Below are positions 120-33,413 of a stretch of 41,375 bases of DNA, piece by piece. Both the position numbers and the translations under genes were made by a program. Positions within the stretch are counted from its first letter, which is position 1; the number at the start of each line of letters is the position of its first letter. Origin of the DNA: an uncultured Acidobacteriia bacterium (lineage in GTDB: Bacteria; Acidobacteriota; Terriglobia; Bryobacterales; Bryobacteraceae); assembly GCA_903929755.1 (NCBI GenBank), contig CAIYVZ010000047.1, forward strand, positions 1-41,375. Direction: 5' to 3'. Under the pieces are notes generated by a model. It was not told the origin of the DNA and did no database searches. It saw only the letters and a program-made list of their open reading frames with translations.

Positions 120-1100
120 CTATCTCCGACAGGCTCCTAGGGATGATTCATAAAGAAGTTTAAGGGCGTCCTTGCTAGATGTGACGCCACAGTGGGGACA
201 TGGAAACGTCTCTCGAATCGAGCCGGTCTTCTCATCAAGCGCTTCGTGAACAAATACGATTTCCTTCAAGCACTCGCTACAAGAAAAGACGTCGCTCCAA
301 ACCGTGTAGTTGATGCGCCCTGTACTTTTCCCATCTGTATGCAGCGTCTTGTACATCCACCCAAGCTCAGCTTCGAGTTCGTCCAGAATGCGACGCGCAT
401 GATTCTGGAACGAAGTTGCGTCAAAACGAGTGTTGTAATTGGAGGCAATAAATGTCGCGGCTGGTGAGAGATCATTCAAAATGGCGTGGCGATAGCCGAT
501 TCGGGAGATTGGCAGCAAAATCGATTTGCCGGCCACGTCTTGCGTATCATGGCAGATTACGCCGTCGTCGCCCACGCGGTACCCCAGCGCCGCAATTTCA
601 GCCCGATTGCCACAGAGTTGCGCCGCAACTCCTGTCATACCGGTCCCGCAAAAGCCATCCAAGACGATGTCGCCTGGTTCTGTGTAGTGGAGGATGTACC
701 GCATGATGGCCTTATGCGGGACCTTCGTGTGGTAGCTGTGAGCCATGTAAAGAGGATCTGTCTTGCCTTCACTTACGTCTGCGGCAAATGGCTCCCTGCT
801 ATAACGCTCGCTAGAATCGTATTGTTTGCCGTAATACCGTACGAAGTCTTCCAGAAAGGGGTTCGGGCACGCTGTGTAGAAAGGTGGATCTGACAGGCGA
901 AGAATGTCCTCGTCGGTGCCGATCGGGAAGCCCGGAATGGCACGGAATTCTGCGTCCTTTAGCTTCTCCCTCAGGAGCCCTAAAAAGTGTGTGCGCCTTG
1001 CCGCATCATTGTCGAAACGTAACCCCAGACATTCGACCGGCACCGAGCTCGCCTGATCGCCAAGCAGAGACCCCTGCTGTTTCGGTTGTTTTGTAATCAT
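120..1100 (-). pseudogene. pglXI: Truncated BREX type 3 DNA methyltransferase (PglXI)
   Basis: This is the N-terminal part of the BREX type 3 adenine methyltransferase, which marks host DNA so the system can tell it from phage DNA. The SAM-binding motif I (DGFCGTGMTG) is at about residues 149-158, after the family stretches DPPFYTACPNPF and AHSYHTKVPHKAIMRY. A zinc ribbon (CSEC...CPHC) lies near residues 275-307. Translation stops at 326 residues, while I recall family members as several hundred residues longer with the catalytic DPPY/NPPF-type motif further on; that motif is absent here. Reading past the TAG gives only 26 codons before another stop. The start at 1100 is chosen because GGAGA lies 7 nt upstream; an in-frame ATG at 1118 has no such site. 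The gene lies 30 nt behind brxC in the same operon. Inferred to be inactive, unless a programmed frameshift rescues it. Confidence 0.72.
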
Positions 1101-1130
1101 GCAATCTCTCCAGTACATGCGGTTGCCGCA

Positions 1131-4100
1131 TCACTCCAGGACCACCCGAATCTTCGTGGGGTCTTTGCCCTTGCTGATCTCGACGAGGTAGTCTTCAAAG
1201 CGTTTCTTGAGCTCGGGCACAGTCGCTGGAGAGCCTGCGGCCAGCAAGGCTAACCGCAGACTCTCTGAAGTGATAACCACCTTCGACAAGCCGGAAAGCG
1301 CCTCCTGCAGGGCGGCCACAAAGTCCTGGCTTACGTCGTCCGGCAAGGTGCGCGCTGCAAGGAAGGCGTCGACGATCTTGCGGGGTGCCTGTTTGAGCAG
1401 TCCCAGATTCTGTTGGGTGGTGGGGTCCTCAAGGTTGTTCAAGAGCGTCTTGGTCCAGCTCTCGTGCAACTGGTCCAGCTCATCTTCCAGCTTCCTGATA
1501 GCCTGGCTGGCGGGAACGGCATCAGGTTCGGTAACCAGCCGGAAATTACAGTGCGGGCAGACAGGAGAGGCATCGAGATCAGGCTCAGTCAACGCAAAAC
1601 ATGTTCGCAAACTGCCCAGACGATTTTGGTAGTCGCTCAGCTGCAGCCGAGGCATCAACTCGATTGTTGAGAGCCGTTGTAACTGCACCAACCGGGAATC
1701 TTTCGACAACTGTGACTTCAACTTGTCGTCTTTCGCCCCAAGTCGCGCGCGGCCATGTGCCGTGACATATAAGTCGGCGTAGTCCCTTTTCAAGCCGGAT
1801 AGCCTTTGAAGACCCTGCTGCCGGAATGAGTGCGATTCCCGCTTCCCGGCGTCGAGCATGTCCGAAAGCAGCTCGTAGCGAACGGCCTGGACTGTCTTGA
1901 TCCACGTGTGATCACTGGGCAGAGCCGCTTCGGCCGTAGCGAGATAGGATGCGACCGGCCCGAACTCCGCAGCGATCAACTGGAACGCCTCCAGTTGTTT
2001 CAGTGCATCCAGACCGTCACGTTTGGCTGTCACATCCTGCGGTTCATAGCGGAAGTTCTTCAGTTGACCCGCGGTCGTATAAACCTGAAGCGATTCCAAA
2101 AACTGTTTGGACGCGTCCATGCGGCTGCGTAACGCCTCTGTGTCCTCGGGAGAAAGAAGATTCCGACCCCAAAGCTTAATGCCGACTTGCAGCGTCTGTT
2201 GAGCCTGAACGATTCTCTCCGTGAACTTTTTCGATTCGCCAACGAGCGTTTTTACAGCACCGCCCGCCTGTTCGCCACCCTGCGTGAGGGCCTGCGCGAG
2301 ACCAGGCGGCTGACCCAGCAACTCAAACAGAGCCTTCAGGGCAGGTAAATTCCAGTCTTTCGGCCGCTCGATGTGCTTGAAGTTCAGCAGTTCGTCGAGA
2401 GGCGTGGCCGTCAACTGGGCGAGATTCGTGGCGTCGAGCTTCTTGCCGGGAATGGCAAGAACGAGATCGCCAGAGTGGACCAGGGCTGAGAGCAGGACGA
2501 CGAGCCACTCGGGCTCCAATCGAAATTGTTCGGGCGTGAAGTATTCGACCCCGTGAACTTCGTGAACCAGTTCGCTCCGGTTCACCACTTGCCCGTGACC
2601 TTTCTTCTTTAGGGCGTCGACGACACTGCCAGCGAACTTCGATTTTGCTGAATCCAGCCGCTCGCCATCCAGCAATTCCAGCGCTTCGAGGACTGCGGTA
2701 CCGAGTTTCGTTCGCGCACCTCCGGCTATCGCCTTCAGTGCATCCTGTGTAGCCAGCTCTCGGTTGGCGGTTGTAATGAGCAGCGAGAACGACGGGTAGT
2801 TGGGTGCGAGGTCTTCGAAGTGTGGCGCCAGACATACCGAGGCGACTGAATTGACGACATCGCGAACGTTGATACGCCCGCCGCTGCCGAGCGGTTTGCC
2901 CTTGACCCAGCCGAGCAGAGGCTTGGCCTTCCCCTGATAGGTGACCTCGAAGGCCGTCGTCATGTGCTCCTGGAGCCACTTGACCAAATCCCGAAGGAAG
3001 CCGGTTGGGCCGTTGGCCTTGCGCTCGTACGTCTCCTTGGCGTTGCCCGACGAGGTCGAGGCGAGGTTCACAGCCGCGGCGTAGTTGCGAAGAGCGGTGC
3101 GGAAGGTATCGTCAGCGCCGGTGAGGTTGAGGCGGAAAAAGACTTCGTCCTTTCTTTTTTCGTCCTGATACCGTGGCGGATCGAAGGGCTGCAGGAAGTA
3201 CAAGAAAAAATCGCGAGGTGGGGCTGCGGTTGACCGTTCATTCGGCGCGCCGAAAAAAAGGTAGCCGCGACGGGAGACTTTCCGCTCCAGCCACTCAAGC
3301 TCGTGCTCCCAGACGCGATAGCCAGTGACGTAGGTCTGGTCCGTACACTCCATGACCCGTTTCAGGGCCTCGTAGTAATAGCGGTCCAGCTGGGTGGACT
3401 CCAGCGATTCGGCGCGCTTTTCAATGATGGTGTCGTAGTCCTCAGTTCTACTCAGGTCGAGGTACCACTGGCCATTGACTTTATTCTGGGAGAGAAATTG
3501 GCCGTTGACCGTGTTCTTGATCTGGCCAAGCACGTTCTCGACATGTGTAAGGAGATCCGCAGCCCCATCTCCGCCCATCGCCGCGACCTCGGCCTGATAG
3601 AGACAGAGAGTATCGCGTAGTTCAGCAGCCGTAGGCCCAACCGGCACATGAATATCTCCGGTTGTGAGCCGCTGGACCGAAAGCGCCTGGAGTAGGCGCC
3701 GAGCCATAGGTTTGAAGGGTTTGATCGGAAAGGCTGCTTCAACGCGGGATTCCAGCACCTGGCTGCAGTCGATCACTTCGCGAATGTCGGGAACCGCGCG
3801 GAAAGACGGATTCTCCCTCAGAGTGTTCCAGTAGTTGTCGTAGGCGATGAGGCCCGGTTCGTTCGCCGGGAGTGTGTCGGCGAGTCTCTTCCGCATCGCG
3901 ATCGAGAGGCTCTTGAGGACTTCACGCTTCTCGATTGCCGTCACGCGCTCGAAGGTGTCGATGTAATCGGGGTGCACCGGGAAGAGTCGCACGAACTCGT
4001 CCATGCGCTCGTTCATGTTGCCGTAGAACTTGGCGAATGGCAGCAGATATTCTCGAATCTGAGCCTGCTGCGCCGGAGATTTTCGCAGCAGGCGTTCGGC

Positions 4101-4865
4101 CACGACGAACTTGACGTCGCTTCTGGCGATCAGGAGCTGCTCGAAGCGATCCTTTACACGGCGAACGCTATCCGCCACGAACGAGAATCGTGGGCTGTCA
4201 AAAATGGCTTCCTGTATGCCGGCGACGAAACGGAAACGCAGGTCTTTGCAAACCTCGCCCACTTCACGGAGAAAGTTCAAATCGAGGATCAGTTCCTGAT
4301 CTTTTCGGCTTCGCAGGTAGTCGAGCAGCTCGTCGACTACTACGAGAAGGCCGTGGTCGGGAAACTTCTGATGGAACAGCGCCATCATCTCTTCGAAGGC
4401 GCGCTTATTGTTGGTTACCGTGGCTGCGGAAGGAAAGGTGAAGCCGACGCCCAGTTTAGAAAGATGCTCTTCGATTTCAGCGGTAAGAATGTCACGTAGG
4501 GACATGGTGACCGCGCCAATCTCAGTGCGGATCACTTTGAACTTGCCGGCAATCCGCACCGCAGCCGCTGCCCCCGGCGCGCAACGCAGCATCGGCAGGG
4601 TGGACGCATCTTCCGCGATGGCTGAAAGTACCGACATTAGGTGAGACTTACCCGTACCGTAGTTGCCCACGACCATCAACCCTTTGTTGTCTGCTGGCGT
4701 GTCGAACTGGAGATCCGGGATGACGAGCGACGTTAGTTTCTCCGCCATCTCCTCCGAGATGACATACGTGGACACAAGCTGTTTTGCCGCGTCCGACTGA
4801 TCCGCATTGCGGAGTTGTACTACCGATTCAATCGGTTCGAATTGGATTAGATCGCCGTATTTCAT
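1131..4865 (-). CDS. brxC: BREX type 3 ATPase BrxC/PglY (DUF6079-like)
   Basis: Large P-loop ATPase of the BREX phage-defence system, expected to act in the cytoplasm with the methyltransferase and PglZ. Walker A is GNYGTGKSH at residues 67-75 and Walker B is LLVVVDE near 173-179, followed by a long helical region. A CxxC pair (CPHC) lies near residue 1110, typical of the zinc knuckle late in these proteins. The 1244-residue length suits the BrxC/PglY family. It sits 18 nt downstream of brxF and 30 nt upstream of the methyltransferase fragment, so the three are probably cotranscribed. The reading frame is intact with no sign of decay, unlike its neighbour. The BREX type 3 assignment rests on the BrxF-BrxC-PglXI order and motif recognition, not on a search. 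Confidence 0.88.
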
Positions 4866-4883
4866 CTCTCTACCTTTGCGGGC

Positions 4884-5363
4884 CTACGCACTCTGTCTGA
4901 GGCAAACAACCAATAGATCGGCCGACGGATATCGCCGAAACTCCGGGTGCTCAGGCACCGCGTACGTTAGGTGCCCACCAGCCACGCCGCCCAACCAGGT
5001 GGCAACAATCGTTCTATCTCTGGACAGCCCCTGCAAAAGACGCAGAGGATCTTGCCTGAGCACAGGGTTGAAAAGAACCTCCGTGTTGTCCAGCAGCGTA
5101 AGATTGGCGGGAAGTCCTGCCACCGCATCTTCAAGCAATTTGGGCAACTGAAGAGCCCGCTGCCGCTCGGTCAGGTCGAGAAGCTGTCGCGAAATCTCCG
5201 CGCCAACGTTGAGCACAGGAGCTTTTTCGGCATCCGCCAGCGCACGCAGAGCCGTCGTCCGACCGCTGCCTGAAGGCCCGACCACGAGCACCAGACGGTT
5301 GTAGATGTCGGCGATTCCCGACAGCCGCTGCCGAATTTGATCCACTGTACTCTGCGTCTGCAT
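4884..5363 (-). CDS. brxF: BREX type 3 P-loop protein BrxF
   Basis: Small predicted NTPase (159 aa) that is the hallmark of BREX type 3 loci. The P-loop is GPSGSGRT at residues 29-36, with Arg in the position normally held by the Walker A lysine. A hydrophobic strand ending in LLDN (near residues 93-97) may be the Walker B region, although its acidic pair is weak. The gene starts 3 nt after the HTH gene stops and ends 18 nt before brxC, so it is part of one operon. The K-to-R change may weaken nucleotide hydrolysis or may be normal in this branch; I cannot tell without an alignment. Family identification is based on size, P-loop and position next to BrxC. Confidence 0.82.
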   Translation of the reverse strand: MQTQSTVDQIRQRLSGIADIYNRLVLVVGPSGSGRTTALRALADAEKAPVLNVGAEISRQLLDLTERQRALQLPKLLEDAVAGLPANLTLLDNTEVLFNPVLRQDPLRLLQGLSRDRTIVATWLGGVAGGHLTYAVPEHPEFRRYPSADLLVVCLRQSA

Positions 5364-6134: not shown

Positions 6135-6637
6135 AGAAGAAGCCCGCAATCAAAGATTTACCCAAGATGAACGCACGGCAGTTGCAATCCGTGCACGAGG
6201 AGTTATTCGGCGCAGCACATCGTATCGCGAACAGCCAGCACCTGCGACGGAAGATCGCATGGCACCTGCAGGCAGCCCGGGAAGGCGGCCTGCCAGAGTC
6301 GGTCCGCCAGCTCGCCCTCGACATCGCGCGCTGCGCGAAGTTGCGATTGCGTATCAACGAAAATGCGTCGCGGAGATCGGCGCAGATTCCAGAGGACCGA
6401 ACAATCACAACCGCCGTGGTGCAGTCGTCGGACCCACGTCTCCCAATGCCAGGCTCCACGATTTGGCGGAACTATAAGGCCAAGACCATTGTGGTGAAGG
6501 TCCTTAACGATGGCTTCGAATATGAAGGAAGGCAGTTCAGTTCCCTAAGCGCGATCGCGGGCGAGATCACCGGCGCTCGCTGGAATGGGTTCGCCTTCTT
6601 CGGCCTCGAAAAGGAGGCGCAGGATGCGCAGCAGTAA
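6131..6637 (+). CDS. DUF2924 family protein
   Basis: A 168-residue protein with the DUF2924 pattern: an N-terminal helical region (MNARQLQSVHEELFG), then IWRNYKAKTIVVKVLNDGF and a C-terminal SLSAIAGEITGARWNG...FFGL. The family has no established biochemical activity but is nearly always encoded directly upstream of a large serine recombinase, as here. It starts with GTG inside a GTGA overlap with the previous gene, and its last 14 nt overlap the recombinase, so the three should be made together. A later ATG at 6170 is an alternative start. I infer an accessory role in site-specific recombination. Confidence 0.85.
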   Translation: MKKKPAIKDLPKMNARQLQSVHEELFGAAHRIANSQHLRRKIAWHLQAAREGGLPESVRQLALDIARCAKLRLRINENASRRSAQIPEDRTITTAVVQSSDPRLPMPGSTIWRNYKAKTIVVKVLNDGFEYEGRQFSSLSAIAGEITGARWNGFAFFGLEKEAQDAQQ

Positions 6638-24752: not shown

Positions 24753-25295
24753 GTGAAAGGCCGCAAACCAAAACCAAATGCGAGGAAGCTGGCCGAGGGG
24801 GACACGCGGAAAGTTGGCGCGCGCAAGCTCGCCGCGCAGATCGCGGCGGAGCCCAAAGCATCCAGCGGACTGCCTCCCTGTCCCCGCCACCTTCGCGGCC
24901 GCGCTCGTGCCGCCTGGAACTTCTGGCGCGAAGAACTGATGGCCATGAACCTCGACCGGCGCCCGGATGCACAAATGCTGGAAGGCGCGTGCGTGGCGTA
25001 CGAGGCTGCAGTCGATTCCTACGAGACGCTGCATAAGCAGGGACGGTTGATCGCCAGGCGTGCCAAGGACCCGAAGACGGGCCAGCTGGTGGTGACCGAT
25101 GTGCGCCCGCATCCCGCCGTCGCCATGGGCAACGATGCATGGGCGCTGCTGCGCTCGTTTTGCAGCGAGTTCGGGCTGAGCCCGGTCAGCCGCACGCGCC
25201 TGTCGATTGAAAAAACAGACAGTGGCGAAGACGATCTGATGAAGATTCTGATGCAGCCACGGACGCCGAAACCGGCGAAGGGATTTGTTCAGTGA
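24753..25295 (+). CDS. Phage terminase small subunit, P27 family
   Basis: A 180-residue small terminase that would bind the phage DNA and guide the large subunit. The N-terminus KGRKPKPNARKLAEGDTRK is the P27-family signature. LPPCPRHLRGRARAAWNFWREEL and LARLE-like helical regions follow, and the C-terminus ends with the usual basic stretch. The GTG at 24753 is chosen over TTG at 24717 because it gives the canonical start. It overlaps the next gene by ATGA. The large subunit is unusually distant, 5.5 kb downstream. Confidence 0.87.
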   Translation: MKGRKPKPNARKLAEGDTRKVGARKLAAQIAAEPKASSGLPPCPRHLRGRARAAWNFWREELMAMNLDRRPDAQMLEGACVAYEAAVDSYETLHKQGRLIARRAKDPKTGQLVVTDVRPHPAVAMGNDAWALLRSFCSEFGLSPVSRTRLSIEKTDSGEDDLMKILMQPRTPKPAKGFVQ

Positions 25296-25795
25296 TGCTG
25301 ATCGAACTGTGGCTGATCGACCGGCTGACCCCCTTTGCGCGGAATGCGCGGAAGATCCCGCAGGCCGCTATCGACAAGGTTGCCGCGAGCATCCGGGAGT
25401 TCGGCTGGCAGCAGCCGATTGTCGTGGATGTGGACGGGGTGATCGTGGCGGGCCACGTGCGCCTTCTGGCTGCCAGGCAACTCGGCGAGAAGCAGGTCCC
25501 GGTTCACGTCGCGAGCGAACTTACGCCGGGGCAGATACAGGCCTTCCGGCTCATGGACAACCGCAGCCATGAGGAGACCGGTTGGGATCTGGAACTGCTG
25601 GGGCTGGAACTGGCCGAACTGCAGGAGTTGAACGTCGACGTCTCGCTGACCGGCTTTGACGTCACGGAGATTGCACGGTTGATGGATTCGAAGCCGGAAT
25701 CAGCAGAGTCGGTGGGGAACTCCGACCAGACTGTTCCGGCAGCGCTTCGATGCCCGAAGTGCGGATTTCTGCAAGGGGCGGACATCCCATCATGA
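25292..25795 (+). CDS. ParB-like domain protein, copy 1
   Basis: A 167-residue protein made of a ParB/Srx N-terminal domain (residues 4-100): RLTPFARNARKIPQAAIDKVAAS, GWQQPIVVDVDGVIVAGHVRLLAARQLG, then LMDNRSHEETGWD. The C-terminus ends in CPKCGF, one half of a zinc ribbon, after a 30-residue linker. It is the most diverged of three paralogues in the window. The last one is fused to a methyltransferase, so this copy may be a free DNA-binding or regulatory partner. It starts inside an ATGA overlap with the small terminase and ends in one with copy 2. Confidence 0.85.
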   Translation: MMLIELWLIDRLTPFARNARKIPQAAIDKVAASIREFGWQQPIVVDVDGVIVAGHVRLLAARQLGEKQVPVHVASELTPGQIQAFRLMDNRSHEETGWDLELLGLELAELQELNVDVSLTGFDVTEIARLMDSKPESAESVGNSDQTVPAALRCPKCGFLQGADIPS

Positions 25796-26322
25796 AGGCC
25801 CCCGCGATGAAGGTCGAACAATGGCCCATCGACAAGCTGATCGCTTATGCGCGGAATGCCCGAACCATGACCCCTGCGGCGGTGGATAAAGTCGCGGCGT
25901 CGATCCAGGAGTTTGGCTGGCGGCAGCCAATCGTTGTCGATGCGCACCGCGTGATCATCGCCGGGCACACGCGTCTGGCGGCAGCCAGGCAGCTGGGTCT
26001 CAAGAAGGTCCCGGTGCTGACCGCCGCGCATCTCACGCCGGCGCAGGTTAAAGCGTACCGGCTGATGGACAACCGGAGCCATGAGGAGACTTCGTGGGAC
26101 GCATCTCTGCTGGCCGACTGTCTCGCCGAACTCCAGACGGGAGGCGCCGACCTCGACCTGACCGGTTTCAATTCAGATGAGATCACGGCATTCCTCATGG
26201 ACGGGACTGCCGCCGCCCCGGCACCTGAAGAATTCAAAGAGTACGACGAATCAATCGCCACGGAGCACGAGTGCCTCAATTGCGGGTACCGATGGAGTGG
26301 CAACGGTTCGCAGGCAGAGTAA
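25792..26322 (+). CDS. ParB-like domain protein, copy 2
   Basis: A 176-residue paralogue of the preceding gene. From residue 6 on, the domain WPIDKLIAYARNARTMTPAAV...GWRQPIVVDAHRVIIAGHTRL...LMDNRSHEETSWD is about 80% identical by eye to the N-terminus of the ParB-methyltransferase fusion at 27740. It ends with a zinc-knuckle-like CLNCGYRWSG. The ATG at 25792 sits in an ATGA overlap; an ATG at 25807 matches the start of copy 3 better and may be used instead. It is placed directly before the C5 methyltransferase, probably as part of one transcript. Confidence 0.85.
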   Translation: MKAPAMKVEQWPIDKLIAYARNARTMTPAAVDKVAASIQEFGWRQPIVVDAHRVIIAGHTRLAAARQLGLKKVPVLTAAHLTPAQVKAYRLMDNRSHEETSWDASLLADCLAELQTGGADLDLTGFNSDEITAFLMDGTAAAPAPEEFKEYDESIATEHECLNCGYRWSGNGSQAE

Positions 26323-26324
26323 CG

Positions 26325-27743
26325 ATGGGCGTCCGAGTCATGCACCACACCAACGGCCAGCACTGTAGTCAGGGCAACGTGCTCAATCGCGCCTGCCCGA
26401 CGATCAAGGGCCGCTCGGCAGACCTCTCCGTTCAGACTGATGACCAACCTGAGTTCCTGCCCAGCCTGGCAACAGCGGACAAGCCGCTCTATCGCGTGCC
26501 GACGATGGTCGAGGTCGCAGCGATCCCGTGGAACGGCTTCACAGTGGCCTCAACGTTCTCGGGATGCGGCGGCTCCTGCCTTGGTTACCGCATGGCTGGC
26601 TTCAAGGTCGTATGGGCGAATGAGTTCGTGCCCGCAGCCCAGGAGTCGTACCGGGCGAACATGAGTCCGGATTGCATTCTGGACACCCGCGACATTAAGA
26701 CGGTGACCGCTGAGGGGATACTCGCGGCGACGGGCCTGAAGGCCGGCGAACTGGACCTCTTCGATGGTTCCCCGCCATGCCAGGCCTTTTCGACCGCAGG
26801 CTCACGCGAAAAAGGGTGGGGCAAGCAGAAGACCTATGAGCACGGCGCGCAGCAGTGTAACGAGACGCTGTTCGATGAATACATCCGCCTGCTGTGTGGG
26901 CTCCAGCCCAGGACGTTTGTCGCCGAGAACGTAAGCGGTTTGGTGAAAGGCACGGCGAAGGGGTGGTTTCTCGATGTCCTCAAAGCCTTGAAAGCATCAG
27001 GCTACCGCGTGAAGGCGAGGCTTCTCGATGCCCAGTGGCTCGGCGTCCCGCAGATGCGCCAACGGATCATCTTCGTCGGTGTGCGTGAGGATCTCCGGCT
27101 GGACCCGGTTCACCCGGAGCCGCTCCGATACCGCTACTCCGTACGCGATGCGCTACCGCATCTGACAGCTTGCAAAACGTCTGCCCACGGTTTCACCAAA
27201 GAGAGCGACTTGAATCTTCACGGCCCTGCGCCTTCGGTCACTGCATCCGGCGGGGCGGCGTATACCGGGCACCAGGTGCAGTCCGCGGAGTTATTGCCAG
27301 GCGATGCGTTCCGCGTCACGGAACTGACGGGCCGTGTGGGTTCGAAGTTCAAGCGAAAGAAGATCAGTCTCGATGGGCCGCTCAACACCGTGAATGCGCA
27401 GGGCGCTGGCGTCCAGCGATTCGAACTGTCTGGCCGCGCCGTTCATAACACCGGGACTCCCGACTGGAGCGCCGGCGACATCACCGACCGCCCGGCACCC
27501 ACTGTGACTGTCGGAAGCATCAGTCGCGACGGTGGCGGTAGCAGCAACCATTTCCATGTCGTCAGCGCAGCCGAACGGCGGAAGTTTACGATTGCTGAAC
27601 TGAAACGAATCTGCGCCTTCCCGGATGACTTTATCCTGACCGGGACGTATGCGCAGCAGTGGGAGCGGCTGGGGAATTCGGTTCCGCCGCTGATGATGAA
27701 GGCGATTGCCGAGACGATCCGGGACAAGGTGCTGGCCCGATGA
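26325..27743 (+). CDS. C5-cytosine DNA methyltransferase
   Basis: A 472-residue cytosine-C5 methyltransferase that would modify phage DNA and may shield it from host restriction. Motif I is STFSGCGGSCLGYRMAG, the catalytic motif IV is GSPPCQAFSTAG, motif VI is ENVSGL, and motif VIII/X regions are QMRQRIIFVG and ERLGNSVPPLMMKAIAE. A long target-recognition part lies between. The first 30 residues (MGVRVMHHTNGQHC...) are not typical of the core and may be an extension or a mis-chosen start; ATG 26340 is a possible alternative. It ends in an ATGA overlap with the ParB-methyltransferase gene. Confidence 0.93.
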   Translation: MGVRVMHHTNGQHCSQGNVLNRACPTIKGRSADLSVQTDDQPEFLPSLATADKPLYRVPTMVEVAAIPWNGFTVASTFSGCGGSCLGYRMAGFKVVWANEFVPAAQESYRANMSPDCILDTRDIKTVTAEGILAATGLKAGELDLFDGSPPCQAFSTAGSREKGWGKQKTYEHGAQQCNETLFDEYIRLLCGLQPRTFVAENVSGLVKGTAKGWFLDVLKALKASGYRVKARLLDAQWLGVPQMRQRIIFVGVREDLRLDPVHPEPLRYRYSVRDALPHLTACKTSAHGFTKESDLNLHGPAPSVTASGGAAYTGHQVQSAELLPGDAFRVTELTGRVGSKFKRKKISLDGPLNTVNAQGAGVQRFELSGRAVHNTGTPDWSAGDITDRPAPTVTVGSISRDGGGSSNHFHVVSAAERRKFTIAELKRICAFPDDFILTGTYAQQWERLGNSVPPLMMKAIAETIRDKVLAR

Positions 27744-28996
27744 AGATTGAACTCTGGCCGCTAGACCGGGTGATCGCCTACGCAAGGAACGCCCGAACCA
27801 TCAGCGAAGCTGCGGTGGCGAAAGTCGCGGCATCGATTCAGGAATTCGGCTGGCGTCAGCCGATTGTGGTCGATGCACAGCGAGTAATCATCGCCGGGCA
27901 CACCCGCCTGCTGGCTGCGCGCAAGCTCGGGCTCACGGAAGTTCCGGTTCACGTCGCGGACAATCTGACGCCGGCGCAGGTAAAGGCGTACCGGTTGATG
28001 GACAATCGGAGCCACGACGAAACCTCGTGGGACTTCGAACTGCTCGGGCCCGAGCTGCTCGACCTCCAGAACCTCGGCTTCGGCAACCTGGAGCTGACCG
28101 GATTCGACGGGCAGGAAATCGCCGACTTCCTCGCCGGGGCGGCTTCGCCGGGACAGGACGGCCAAACGCCCGACGACGAGGCCCCGGCCCTGCGTGACGC
28201 CGCTGTGGCCCAACCCGGCGAACTGTGGCGGCTTGGACAACACAGGCTGCTTTGCGGGGACGCGATGATCATGGCCGATGTCAAACGGGTGCTCGCCGGA
28301 GCCCGTGCGGACCTGGTGGTGATCGATCCGCCATATAACGTCAATTACGAAGGCGCAACAAAAGAGAAACTCAAGATTCAGAACGATCAGATGGCCGACG
28401 CGGCCTTCTATCAATTCCTGCTCAAGGCTTATCAGAACCTTGCCGGCGTCACGAAGGAAGGCGCGGGGATCTATGTGTTTCACGCCGACACCGAGGGTGC
28501 CAACTTCCGGCGCGCGATGGTGGATTCCGGCTGGAAGATGGCCCAATGCTGCGTGTGGGTGAAGCAGACGCTGGTGATGGGTCGGCAGGATTACCACTGG
28601 CAGCACGAGCCGATCCTTTATGGCTGGAAGCCTGGTGCGTCGCATCGCTGGTTCACGGACCGGAAGCAGACGACGGTGTGGAACTTCGACAAGCCCGCGC
28701 GGTCGAAGGAACATCCGACGATGAAGCCGGTGGACCTCATTTCGTATCCGATTCTGAACAGCAGCCGAAACGGTGATGTGGTGCTGGACACTTTCGGCGG
28801 ATCGGGTTCAACGCTGATTGCCTGCGCGAAGCACGGCCGGGAAGCACGACTGATTGAGATCGATCCGAGATATGTGGACGTAGTGATCAAAAGGTACCAG
28901 GACTGGAGTGGCGACAGAGCCACCCTGGACGGCGACGGTCGGACGTTCGATGCAATCGCGTCGGAACGAACCGGTAAAGAGGTCATGTGCCCATAA
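27740..28996 (+). CDS. ParB-N domain fused to amino-methyltransferase
   Basis: A 418-residue fusion. The N-terminal ParB domain (residues 1-105) is the third paralogue of this cluster. The C-terminal part is a DNA adenine-N6 or cytosine-N4 methyltransferase: catalytic DPPYNVNY near residues 195-202, GSGSTLIACAKHGREARLIEIDPRYVDVVIKRYQ as the SAM and final motifs, and a TKPV/EHPTMKPV stretch between. Such fusions are common in phages. The ParB domain may position the enzyme or cut unmethylated DNA. It starts within an ATGA overlap with the C5 enzyme and ends overlapping the zinc/HNH gene by 10 nt. Confidence 0.93.
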   Translation: MKIELWPLDRVIAYARNARTISEAAVAKVAASIQEFGWRQPIVVDAQRVIIAGHTRLLAARKLGLTEVPVHVADNLTPAQVKAYRLMDNRSHDETSWDFELLGPELLDLQNLGFGNLELTGFDGQEIADFLAGAASPGQDGQTPDDEAPALRDAAVAQPGELWRLGQHRLLCGDAMIMADVKRVLAGARADLVVIDPPYNVNYEGATKEKLKIQNDQMADAAFYQFLLKAYQNLAGVTKEGAGIYVFHADTEGANFRRAMVDSGWKMAQCCVWVKQTLVMGRQDYHWQHEPILYGWKPGASHRWFTDRKQTTVWNFDKPARSKEHPTMKPVDLISYPILNSSRNGDVVLDTFGGSGSTLIACAKHGREARLIEIDPRYVDVVIKRYQDWSGDRATLDGDGRTFDAIASERTGKEVMCP

Positions 28997-29523
28997 CGCG
29001 GCAATGTGCGATTTGCGGGTCCGGCTTCACCGGGCATCCCAAACGAAAGCTGTGTTCGACGGCATGTCGCAAGCTCTGGCGCCCACCCACGGTTCTGACG
29101 TGCGGGCACTGCGGGGAGCAATTTGTCGCGAGCCACCTCCGCCGGAAGTACTGCTCATATATTTGCAAGTCCCGCGCGATGGTCATGCGACCGGAGGAGA
29201 GGAAACCACGCGCTGTGGCTACGATTGCTGCGCGCCGTGCACATGGGCTCGTGAATTACTACATTTCCGCGGGAAAGCTGGTACGGCCGTATTGCTGCTC
29301 TGAATGCGGCGGGACCGGACGAATAGAAGCAGCCCACTACGACTATTCGAGGCCCCTCCTGGTTCGTTGGTTATGCCGTTCGTGTCACTCGCGTTGGGAC
29401 CATCGAGAGCCCAAGGGTGGCGTTCAACGTTGGCAGGGGCGGCCCGGAGCAGTGGCCCTGAACGAAGAAAACCGATCCTTCGAGGAAGTCTCGTCGGACC
29501 GGTTGGCGGGGAAGGCAGCGTGA
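28987..29523 (+). CDS. Zinc-finger protein with HNH-like C-terminus
   Basis: A 178-residue protein rich in paired cysteines. Two treble-clef-like units (CAICGSGFTGHPKRKLCSTAC and CGHCGEQFVASHLRRKYCSYIC) fill the N-terminal half. The C-terminal part, CSECGGTGRIEAAHYDYSRP then WLCRSCHSRWDH, resembles the core of HNH homing-type nucleases, with H-D-Y and a C-x2-C-H. It starts with GTG inside the methyltransferase end, so it belongs to that operon. It could be a nuclease or a DNA-binding partner of the modification enzymes; catalytic His is not certain. Confidence 0.68.
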   Translation: MPITRQCAICGSGFTGHPKRKLCSTACRKLWRPPTVLTCGHCGEQFVASHLRRKYCSYICKSRAMVMRPEERKPRAVATIAARRAHGLVNYYISAGKLVRPYCCSECGGTGRIEAAHYDYSRPLLVRWLCRSCHSRWDHREPKGGVQRWQGRPGAVALNEENRSFEEVSSDRLAGKAA

Positions 29524-30144: not shown

Positions 30145-30651
30145 TTACGCAGCCTTGTAGGTGCGGGCACCCGCCTCGCTCCTGGTGGACTCGATCTTCG
30201 TGCCCTTCTTGCCGAGGATCGCGATGAACCCGCGAACCGTGTGCTTCTGCCAGTCGGTCGCCGTCATGATCTCGTCGAGGGTGGCTCCGTTCTTGCGGCT
30301 GATGAGGGCGAGGACCTGGTCTTTCTTGCTGGTGCCTGCGGCCTTCGGTTCCTTCGCGACCTTGGCCGCTTTGGGGGCCTTGGTGGCCTTCGCCTTCGCG
30401 GGTGTGACAACCTCTGCGGCCTTCGACGGGGCGGCCTTGGTGGCCTTCGCTGCCTTCACGGAGGCCTTGCGCTTCTGGTCGCCCGCTTTCAGCTTTGCCT
30501 GGTCGGCCTTCATCTGCTCCTGCCGGGTTGCCTCAGCTTCGCAGTCCGGGCAGCCCGGATAAGGAACCGGGTGCTCGCGGCAACCGGCGCTCAGGGTGGT
30601 GGCCTTCGGGGCCTTGGTGGTCAGCGTTCTGGTGTTCGTAATCTTTTTCAT
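30145..30651 (-). CDS. DUF3489 domain protein with Lys/Ala-rich linker
   Basis: A 168-residue protein. A zinc-knuckle-like CREHPVPYPGCPDC pattern lies near residues 24-37, then a long Lys/Ala/Pro linker (about residues 40-110) like histone H1 tails. The C-terminus is a DUF3489 winged-helix-like domain: KKDQVLALISRKNGATLDEIM, DWQKHTVRGFIAIL and SEAGARTYKAA. DUF3489 has no established function but is common in phages and near mobile elements. The linker suggests DNA binding. The ATG at 30651 is preferred over 30723. It reads away from the large terminase and has its own terminator. Confidence 0.8.
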   Translation of the reverse strand: MKKITNTRTLTTKAPKATTLSAGCREHPVPYPGCPDCEAEATRQEQMKADQAKLKAGDQKRKASVKAAKATKAAPSKAAEVVTPAKAKATKAPKAAKVAKEPKAAGTSKKDQVLALISRKNGATLDEIMTATDWQKHTVRGFIAILGKKGTKIESTRSEAGARTYKAA

Positions 30652-30764
30652 TTGCTGGTCTCTTTTCGGTCCCGGTCCAGCCGGGTACACCACATGAATC
30701 ACTCTGATCCGAACGACAAGCAAGTTGATTCGCTTCGGTCCGTTTATTAAAAACCCAACAGAAT
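30652..30764. promoter_or_regulatory. Divergent promoter region of terminase and DUF3489
   Basis: This 113-bp gap separates the leftward DUF3489 gene from the rightward large terminase and head genes. CAAGTT (30721-30726) and TATTAA (30745-30750) lie 18 bases apart, similar in kind to the two elements at 5735 and 21633, but with different spacing and without the flanking bases. It probably contains the late promoter. No operator repeats are evident. Confidence 0.35.
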
Positions 30765-33413
30765 GTGCCCTTCTCTGAGCAGCATGCTTTCGCAGCCTGC
30801 AACTTCTTCGAACTCCTGCTGAAGCACAGCGCGGACGAGTGGTACGGGCAGCCGTTCCTGCTTTGCCCGTGGCAGGAAGAAGCGCTCTGTCAGATCTTCG
30901 GCCAGTTGGACGAGGCCGGTAACCGAATCATCGAAATGGTCTACATCGAAACCCCGAAAAAACCTCTGCACGTGGAGACCCCGGTACCAACGTCGTCCGG
31001 CTGGACGACGTTGGGCGAGATCGAAGCGGGAGATATTGTTTTCGATGAGGCAGGACAACCTTCCACAGTCACCGGAGTCAGTCCGGTTTTCTATGACAGA
31101 GAATGTTACCGAGTCCTGTTCTCGGATGGCGAGACGATAGTCGCGGACGCAGATCATCCGTGGCAGACGACCACAAAGAAGCCACACAACAAGACGGCAA
31201 TTCGGTCCACGCGGGAAATAGCGGCAACTATCAAATATCGCGGCACAAGCAATCACGCTGTTCAGCTTGCAGGTGCGCTGTCGCTCCCGGCCGCCGAGTT
31301 GCCGTTAGATCCGTGGTTGTTAGGTTACTGGCTCGGCAATGGGACCAAAGGCAAGAACGTTGTTACGTGCGGCCTGGATGACCTCGAATCCATTGCGCGC
31401 GAGCTTGAAACCTGCGGGCACAGGTATTCCGTGTGGCGCGATTCACGCGCGGCCGCGATTGCTCTTGATCCCGGCGAAGGGGTTAAAGGCAACCCGTCCC
31501 CGTTCATGTCGAAATTGAGGGCGCTCGGGCTTGGCGAAGACAAACGGATCCCGGCGCTCTACCTGCGATCATCCGCGGAACAACGCCGCGCGCTGCTGCA
31601 GGGGTTAATGGACAGCGATGGGGACTGCACGAAAAAAAGGGCCTCCAGATTCTCAACGATGTCGAGGCTGCTCTGCGGCGACGTTTATGAACTGCTTTGC
31701 TCTCTTGGTTACCAGTCGCGCGTAACGACATCGCGTGCGTTGCTGAACGGAAAAGACTACGGCAAAGCGTACCGGATCGCTTTCACCGCTTTTCGGGGCG
31801 ATCCGGTATTCAGGCTCAAACGAAAACGAGAACGCCAGCGCCAGAACAAGAGCCGTCGACCGCGCTCGTCCCGTCGATTCATCGTCTCGGCAGAACCGGT
31901 TGCATCCGTTCCGGTCCGGTGTATCACGGTCGATTCCCCTTCTCATTTATTCCTTGCCGGAAGAGGAATGATTCCCACGCACAACTCCGGCAAGACCGAG
32001 TTTGCCGCCGGCATTGTGCTGTTCGTGCTGCTGACCAGCCACCTGCAGGGTTGCCAGGTATATGGCGCCGCGTCGGCCACGCGCCAGGCGATGAACGTGT
32101 ATCGGGCCGCCTGCAAGATGGTCGAGCAGTCGCCTCTCTTGAAGAAGCGGCTGCGAGTCCTGCGTGGCACGAACCGCATCGTCAAGCGTTCGGACCCCGA
32201 CTCCTTCTATGCGGCGATTGCGGCGGACGGCGATGTGGGGGATGGTGTCAATCCGGCATGTGTGATTGCTGACGAACTGCACCGCTGGAAGACCCGCAAG
32301 CAGATTGAGAACTGGGACGTCCTGTCGAACGGTGGCATCACGCGGCAGCAGACACTGACCATCGCGATCACGACGGCGGGCGTGCAAAACGAATCGCCCC
32401 TTGCGTGGCGGCTGCACGAAAAGACCCGCAAGGCCGAAGAAGGCACCGTTTCCGATCCGAAGTTTTACGGCAGGATCTATGGCGCGGCGCGAGAGGACGA
32501 CCCCGCGGCCCCCGCTACCTGGATCAAGGCCAATCCCAGCCTGAAGCAGAACGGTGGCTTTCTGGACATCGCGAAGATCCGCGACCAGTATGTTTCGCAC
32601 GCCGCGGAAGGCGATCTCACATCGTTCAAACGCTACTTCCTGAATATGTGGGACCAGAAGGAATCCCGCGCCATCGATCTGGTCCTGTGGGATGCATCCC
32701 GAAGCGTCTGGGAGACTGCAGGCCTTTTGCCGAAAGCGCCCGAAGATGTGATCCGGCCCTTGCCGCGTGATCTGCTCAGTCACTTCATCAAACGCCGCTG
32801 CTGGGCCGGGGTCGATCTTTCGATGAGCACCGATCTTTCCGCAGTGGCTTTCGTGTTCCCTTGCGATGACGGCGGCTACGACATTCTGCCCTTCTTCTGG
32901 ACGCCCGCCGCGAAGGTAAGGCAGCGCCAACTCCGCGATGGCATGCCGTACCAGCAGTGGGCGGAAGAAGGATTTATCGAACTCTCGCCGGGCAGCGTGA
33001 TCGATTACCGCGACGTCAGGGCGCGCATCGAATGGGGCGTCCAGATGTTCGATATCCAGGAAATTTGCTTCGATCCGTGGAACTCGCGCGAGATGTCGGT
33101 GCCGATGGTCGAAGAGGGATTTCCGTGCATAGAAGTTCGCCAGGGATTTCAGACGCTGTCCGAGCCTTCGAAGAAGCTACTGGAGCTGGTGGCGTCGGCC
33201 CGTCTCTATCACGGCGGCCATCCGGTACTGCGCTGGAATGCCAGTTGCCTGAACGCCAAATGGGCCAACGACAACCTGATGTTCTCGAAGCCCGACCGGG
33301 AAAAGAACTCTTCCCGCATTGATGGAATCTCGGCTGCCGTGAACGCGCTGCACCGCGCTCTCGTGATGGAGACCAAGACGATCACGTATACCGGTCTCCG
33401 GAGCGTCGGCTAG
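30765..33413 (+). CDS. Large terminase subunit containing an intein
   Basis: An 882-codon reading frame encoding a 541-residue large terminase interrupted by a 341-residue intein. The terminase packages phage DNA: it pumps DNA into the prohead and cuts it. The N-terminal extein starts FSEQHAFAACNFFELLL and includes FLLCPWQ (adenine/Q motif). Walker A would be PKKSGKT only after splicing. Walker B is VIADELH near residue 500 of the precursor. The nuclease domain has GVDLSMSTDL near residue 680 and a final RIDGISA near 852. The GTG at 30765 opens the frame; no clear ribosome site precedes it. An ATG at 30763 is in the wrong frame. The portal gene starts on the next base after the stop. Confidence 0.94.
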   Translation: MPFSEQHAFAACNFFELLLKHSADEWYGQPFLLCPWQEEALCQIFGQLDEAGNRIIEMVYIETPKKPLHVETPVPTSSGWTTLGEIEAGDIVFDEAGQPSTVTGVSPVFYDRECYRVLFSDGETIVADADHPWQTTTKKPHNKTAIRSTREIAATIKYRGTSNHAVQLAGALSLPAAELPLDPWLLGYWLGNGTKGKNVVTCGLDDLESIARELETCGHRYSVWRDSRAAAIALDPGEGVKGNPSPFMSKLRALGLGEDKRIPALYLRSSAEQRRALLQGLMDSDGDCTKKRASRFSTMSRLLCGDVYELLCSLGYQSRVTTSRALLNGKDYGKAYRIAFTAFRGDPVFRLKRKRERQRQNKSRRPRSSRRFIVSAEPVASVPVRCITVDSPSHLFLAGRGMIPTHNSGKTEFAAGIVLFVLLTSHLQGCQVYGAASATRQAMNVYRAACKMVEQSPLLKKRLRVLRGTNRIVKRSDPDSFYAAIAADGDVGDGVNPACVIADELHRWKTRKQIENWDVLSNGGITRQQTLTIAITTAGVQNESPLAWRLHEKTRKAEEGTVSDPKFYGRIYGAAREDDPAAPATWIKANPSLKQNGGFLDIAKIRDQYVSHAAEGDLTSFKRYFLNMWDQKESRAIDLVLWDASRSVWETAGLLPKAPEDVIRPLPRDLLSHFIKRRCWAGVDLSMSTDLSAVAFVFPCDDGGYDILPFFWTPAAKVRQRQLRDGMPYQQWAEEGFIELSPGSVIDYRDVRARIEWGVQMFDIQEICFDPWNSREMSVPMVEEGFPCIEVRQGFQTLSEPSKKLLELVASARLYHGGHPVLRWNASCLNAKWANDNLMFSKPDREKNSSRIDGISAAVNALHRALVMETKTITYTGLRSVG
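30963..31985 (+). other. Class 3 intein with LAGLIDADG endonuclease
   Basis: A 341-residue in-frame insertion between ETPKK and SGKTEF of the large terminase, exactly in the P-loop. It begins with Pro instead of the usual Cys/Ser, has block A as GWTTLGEIEAGDIVF, the block B tryptophan at intein residue 67 (ADADHPWQT), the block F cysteine at residue 320 (VRCITVDSP) and the Thr in PTHN at residues 338-341, with Ser as first C-extein residue. This W-C-T set without an N-terminal nucleophile defines class 3 inteins. A LAGLIDADG endonuclease domain sits inside: LLGYWLGNGT (first motif, Asn where Asp/Glu is expected) and GLMDSDG (second motif, Asp intact). Splicing is inferred. Confidence 0.9.

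Follow-up and report, generated by a model that had tools for sequence, protein, structure and literature searches.

A predicted class 3 intein in the Walker A motif of a prophage terminase large subunit from an Acidobacteriota genome

An interrupted terminase in a prophage

The window analysed here is the whole of contig C47 (41,375 bp) from an assembly of 6.86 Mb in 212 contigs. It contains a plus-strand frame of 882 aa (30765-33413) for a terminase large subunit that is interrupted by an in-frame insert of 341 codons, which has no stop and is read in the same frame as both terminase parts (Table 1). The two parts, or exteins, match the ATPase family PF03354 (E 5.1e-15) and the nuclease family PF20441 (E 1.2e-38), and the insertion point, PKK^SGKT (the caret marks the junction), falls inside the Walker A motif. 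The GTG start at 30765 is likely rather than proven, since an uninterrupted terminase on contig C25 of the same assembly has an identical GTG and downstream sequence, and a relative (L048) has a Met codon there.

Table 1. Features of the interrupted terminase frame (window positions)
Feature	Position	Strand	Remark
Terminase N-extein, 66 aa, ends ETPKK	30765..30962	+	
Predicted class 3 intein, 341 aa	30963..31985	+	
Pro1, non-nucleophilic first residue	30963..30965	+	Boundary set by the empty allele
Cys48, equivalent to the redox-partner Cys of M. smegmatis DnaBi1	31104..31106	+	PMC6195587
His65, block B position 10	31155..31157	+	Number equal to His65 of MchDnaB1, PMC7664689
Trp67, block B position 12, W of WCT	31161..31163	+	
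Asn126, in the place of the catalytic acid of LAGLIDADG motif 1	31338..31340	+	
Match to LAGLIDADG_3 over intein residues 206-257; Asp219 lies in the second motif, LLQGLMDSDG	31578..31733	+	
Cys320 (C of WCT), block F position 4, predicted to act as the first nucleophile	31920..31922	+	
Thr339-His340-Asn341, block G end: T of WCT, penultimate His, predicted cyclising Asn	31977..31985	+	
Ser+1, codon TCC, first C-extein residue, part of Walker A (SGKT)	31986..31988	+	
Terminase C-extein: remaining ATPase domain and nuclease domain	31986..33413	+	PF03354, PF20441

Twenty larger frames of the window besides the terminase were compared with PHROGs, and matched portal, head protease, major head protein, head-tail adaptor and tail terminator families to the right of the terminase, and an integrase (also matching DNA invertases), a helicase and a primase-polymerase to its left. 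The terminase belongs to a prophage in an Acidobacteriota genome, which extends the range of phages known to carry class 3 terminase inteins. From the terminase onward, the prophage regions of the window and of C25 share 86% identity across 6.3 kb.

Several other genes were observed in the window. Shortly upstream of the terminase lies an HNH endonuclease-like gene (28987-29523, plus strand; PHROG 2340/1271), with a minus-strand DUF3489 frame (30148-30723) between the two. The plus-strand stretch 25068-28914 carries two genes for DNA methyltransferases, of which one matches ParB-like families too, and parts of it align repeatedly to C25, which indicates internal similarity. Three frames on the minus strand (120-5363) match a BREX defence set, namely BrxF (4887-5363), BrxC/PglY (1134-4865; DUF6079) and a PglX-like methyltransferase (120-1115), the last matching the first third of its profile only and ending 119 bases from the contig end. 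These BREX frames adjoin the prophage integrase at 6585, and the prophage may lie beside a BREX locus or have split one.

Class 3 features and predicted splicing of the insert

A first-pass annotation of this DNA had placed an intein between ETPKK and SGKTEF; its coordinates proved exact, with the junction matched by the empty allele on C25. It had also read Pro1, Trp67, Cys320, the T-H-N ending at 339-341 and Ser+1 as the signature of class 3, which is defined by Trp at block B position 12, Cys at F4 and Thr at G5 (PMC3196547). All of these residues were found as described, and alignment with solved class 3 inteins, including 6rix, puts W67, C320 and T339 in class 3 positions. The insert thereby combines a non-nucleophilic residue 1 and the W-C-T set with His at B10 (H65), a C-terminal Asn (N341) and Ser+1. 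A phmmer comparison with a solved class 3 intein gave E 1.8e-28 with blocks A/B and F/G both aligned, so the likeness is not due to chance. In a sequence search of solved structures, the closest were the class 3 DnaB inteins 6rix, 6riy and 6bs8 (E 1.7e-25 or better), and the engineered gp41-1 reached only E 2.3e-4. Residues H65, W67, C320, T339 and N341 were invariant in all 65 rows of an alignment of the window intein with 64 of 73 viral-contig inteins (nine distant rows were omitted, including one with Phe for Trp), and among all 94 parsed inteins the W-C-T positions held Trp in 93 (Phe in the lone exception), Cys in 94 and Thr in 94; both sets were collected with class 3 queries, and these counts show agreement with the class rather than its discovery.

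An alignment-based AlphaFold model of the intein (mean pLDDT 95.9, pTM 0.93), used in place of a discarded single-sequence run (pLDDT 39.7), shows a Hedgehog/intein splicing fold like that of class 3 inteins. Against 6bs8 it aligned at 125 of 125 residues (1.1 Å) with a sequence identity of 45%, compared with 25-27% for gp41-1. Together, 6bs8 (M. smegmatis DnaBi1) and 6rix (M. chimaera DnaB1) show 45-47% identity and 1.1-1.8 Å to the window intein in the splicing domain. Placement in class 3 over class 1 comes from these similarity ranks in sequence and structure, the tree of 94 inteins having no class 1 outgroup. A class 1 intein, or an insert other than an intein, is extremely improbable and was rejected: the only point in its favour is the fold, common to class 1 inteins as well, and W, C and T all occupy class 3 positions. 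Moreover, a Pro at residue 1 is unable to make the N-S shift of class 1. From sequence and model, the insert is read as a class 3 intein that carries a LAGLIDADG domain. No relative among the other 93 inteins of the tree exceeds 47% identity to it over most of its length, and four phage records share 60-80% identity over a partial stretch. Its GC3 (0.636) is lower than in eight coding stretches of the window (0.73-0.81), as for a later arrival.

Taken as a whole, our reading, held with high confidence, is that a class 3 LAGLIDADG intein sits in the Walker A motif of a prophage TerL, between PKK and SGKT, and would be spliced out to restore the ATP-binding loop. The proposed steps follow the published class 3 route (PMC3196547, PMC7664689). 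Cys320 would attack the Lys(-1)-Pro1 bond, the N-extein would be transferred to Ser+1, Asn341 would cyclise with His340 assisting, and a peptide bond would join the exteins to give PKKSGKT. On the evidence of residues, model and empty allele, the intein very probably splices. The prophage terminase itself may be unexpressed. The first-pass statement that the packaging ATPase lacks a P-loop until the insert is removed is a fair deduction from the split motif: the Walker A halves are not contiguous in the precursor, so an ATP-competent terminase should need splicing. Imperfect loss of the intein at this site would ruin the packaging motor, which may account for its persistence.

The same annotation had suggested that splicing could time packaging or make it redox-dependent. 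In a redox version of this idea, Cys48 and Cys320 would form a reversible disulfide. Both cysteines are present in the window intein, DnaBi1 of M. smegmatis, another class 3 intein located in a P-loop, has a redox lock formed by the equivalent pair (Cys48 and the catalytic Cys; PMC6195587), and the authors of PMC5050341 propose that inteins at such sites may modulate their hosts. However, the switch is unsupported, since five tested terminase inteins, among them the Baka (P-loop site b), Bethlehem and Gaia inteins, "spliced readily", with ligated extein as the main product and precursor easily seen for one only (PMC5050341). Cys48 is not special to the window intein either, as it was found in 62 of the 94 class 3-like inteins, and no sign of a redox context was seen in the window. 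No observation made here points to slow or conditional splicing, which we consider unlikely; splicing would more probably be fast and constitutive.

The opposite possibility, that the intein has decayed and no longer splices, the prophage being defective and the co-resident intein-free terminase doing the work, has a precedent in a pseudogene of a class 3 intein known from the remnants of a prophage (PMC3196547), and an uninterrupted terminase does exist in the assembly (C25). Yet every catalytic residue is present, all 882 codons are open, and the portal, protease and head genes that follow all have long open frames matching protein families, which makes decay very unlikely and leaves a functional, splicing intein as the preferred reading. 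The extein is constrained relative to the empty C25 copy (dN 0.042 and dS 0.99 by NG86; 0.037 and 2.45 by YN00), values that span the whole divergence of the two copies and not just the period after insertion.

Empty alleles and homing

The C25 terminase reads directly from ETPKK into SGKTEF and is identical to the window terminase at 503 of 541 extein residues. Of 101 genomes searched around the host, five match the C-extein (the own genome included, and G040 by a short fragment only), and in the full-length close neighbours PKK is followed by SGKT, AGKT or TGKT. Among named genome contigs, 132 pattern matches yielded nine true relatives, three of which (G026, G004 and G016) were already counted in the genome search. 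A comparison with homologues lacking the insert had been proposed as a check on the intein, and it came out in its favour: besides the C25 empty allele, all nine relatives are uninterrupted at the insertion point. In five of these relatives the +1 residue is Asn, which would be unable to act as a class 3 nucleophile. The intein-free copy in the same assembly also provides a natural pair for comparing splicing, homing and cost.

The intein contains a LAGLIDADG domain (PF14528, 28.1 bits against a cut-off of 22.5). LAGLIDADG activity depends on two catalytic acids, one per motif; here the first motif reads LGNG, with Asn126 in place of the acid, and the second keeps Asp219. Position 126 is Asp in 81, Asn in 11, Thr in one and Glu in one of the 94 inteins, and the idea of a dead endonuclease from Asn126 alone is weakened, the 11 Asn inteins being spread over several branches. 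Around the junction, the co-resident empty site on C25 is identical at 37 of 40 bases, and an active, expressed endonuclease should cut it. Homing may therefore be dead or idle, given both Asn126 and the survival of a nearly identical target in the assembly, and the endonuclease is probably weakened or idle. The surviving empty site could reflect a weak enzyme, silent prophages, three base differences that matter, or an assembly of mixed cells.

Insertion point and residue 1 among class 3 inteins

Inteins are well known in phages, class 3 terminase inteins have already been published (PMC5050341), and the window intein is otherwise ordinary and well formed; its insertion point and Pro1 are unusual, and the site is uncommon within Walker A. 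Excerpts of PMC5050341 describe five TerL1 sites, two of them in the P-loop (a between the invariant Lys and Thr, b one residue away), two in a helix (c and d) and one in Walker B (e), and name TerL1-c and -e as class 3. PKK^SGKT is absent among these five; it is neither a (GK^T) nor b, the classic GK^T site being three residues further downstream. Like the window intein, the mycobacteriophage terminase inteins have a LAGLIDADG domain and a terminase ATPase domain as host, and in our own alignment W-C-T is shared by Baka (TerL1-b), Gaia (TerL1-e) and Naira. The Naira intein (L055), probably of the TerL1-c type, also starts with Pro. By analogy with Naira, the TerL1-c intein of Bethlehem (phage accession AY500153) presumably begins with Pro as well.

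More distant systems share some of these features. DnaBi1 is likewise a P-loop insertion, and MchDnaB1 has His65 and Trp67 at numbers identical to those of the window intein; both are class 3 mini-inteins that differ from it in their helicase host, DnaBi1 also in having no homing domain and MchDnaB1 in having Ala1 after GK instead of Pro1 after PKK (PMC6195587, PMC7664689). The terminase intein of Vibrio phage 489E54-1 (OX241561) is 41% identical over residues 2-341 and also lies in Walker A, but at GK^T and with Ala1. Ten viral-contig inteins share both the x^[ST]GK point and Pro1, at 45-47% identity (L040, L044, L094) or 32-38% (L117, L118, L120, L121, L124, L125, L127); all ten have Gly before Pro1, in contrast to Lys in the window, and L044 is a mini-intein of 173 aa compared with 341 aa.

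Sorted by flank, the 94 class 3-like inteins comprise 13 at x^[ST]GK, 62 at GK^[ST] (the Walker A Lys end, including some loosely matched loops) and 19 elsewhere. Pro1 occurs in 11 of the 13 (window included; the other two have Ala), in none of the 62 and in two of the 19. As most of this set was gathered by a search seeded with a Pro1 intein, we used four scans of viral contigs with C-terminal patterns blind to residue 1. These gave 16 loci, which, after removal of chance matches (L149-L151), loci missing the N junction (L145 and L153) and a duplicate (L042), left 10 distinct inteins with Pro1 in seven, Ala in two and Gly in one; for some of the ten, notably L152 and L154, a terminase host or a P-loop position is unproven. 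Three of the ten were already in the first set (L040, L041, and L148 on the contig of L121), and the seven new ones have Pro1 (5), Ala (1) or Gly (1). Compared with none of 62 at GK^[ST], the seven of ten give a Fisher p of 8e-8, a value that ignores kinship and the origin of the idea in the first set.

A quick tree built without residue 1 is weak, with 41 of its 91 inner branches open. It implies seven changes for the site and seven for Pro1; supported branches require at least four site changes, counting two arrivals with Ala1. These supported branches supplied only four independent pairs, a number too small for significance; Pro1 tracks the site in 3.5 of them on average. L142 and L144 (Pro1) and L143 (Ala1) share an identical point in similar proteins, so Pro1 appears to be favoured, not required, at x^SGK. 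We tentatively raise the possibility, itself rather doubtful, that residue 1 is tuned to the insertion point, such that inteins before [ST]GK repeatedly acquire Pro1, those at GK^[ST] keep Ala or another residue, and the X-Pro scissile bond is selected. If so, the host loop would shape the N-junction residue through repeated independent invasions, and the tie offers a modest, testable clue to what determines the class 3 N-junction residue. A partial literature search, judged by titles and the start of abstracts, found no work on Pro1 in class 3 inteins or on the PKK^SGKT point.

Other inteins in these searches are of interest in their own right. Two viral contigs carry near-identical terminase inteins of 165 aa (L147) and 350 aa (L148), apparently a natural mini-intein pair without and with a homing domain, respectively. 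At x^SGK, the class 3 mini-inteins L044 (173 aa), L142 (144 aa) and L144 (153 aa) are too short for a homing domain. Viral contigs L107, L123 and L134 each carry two different class 3-like inteins at separate places.
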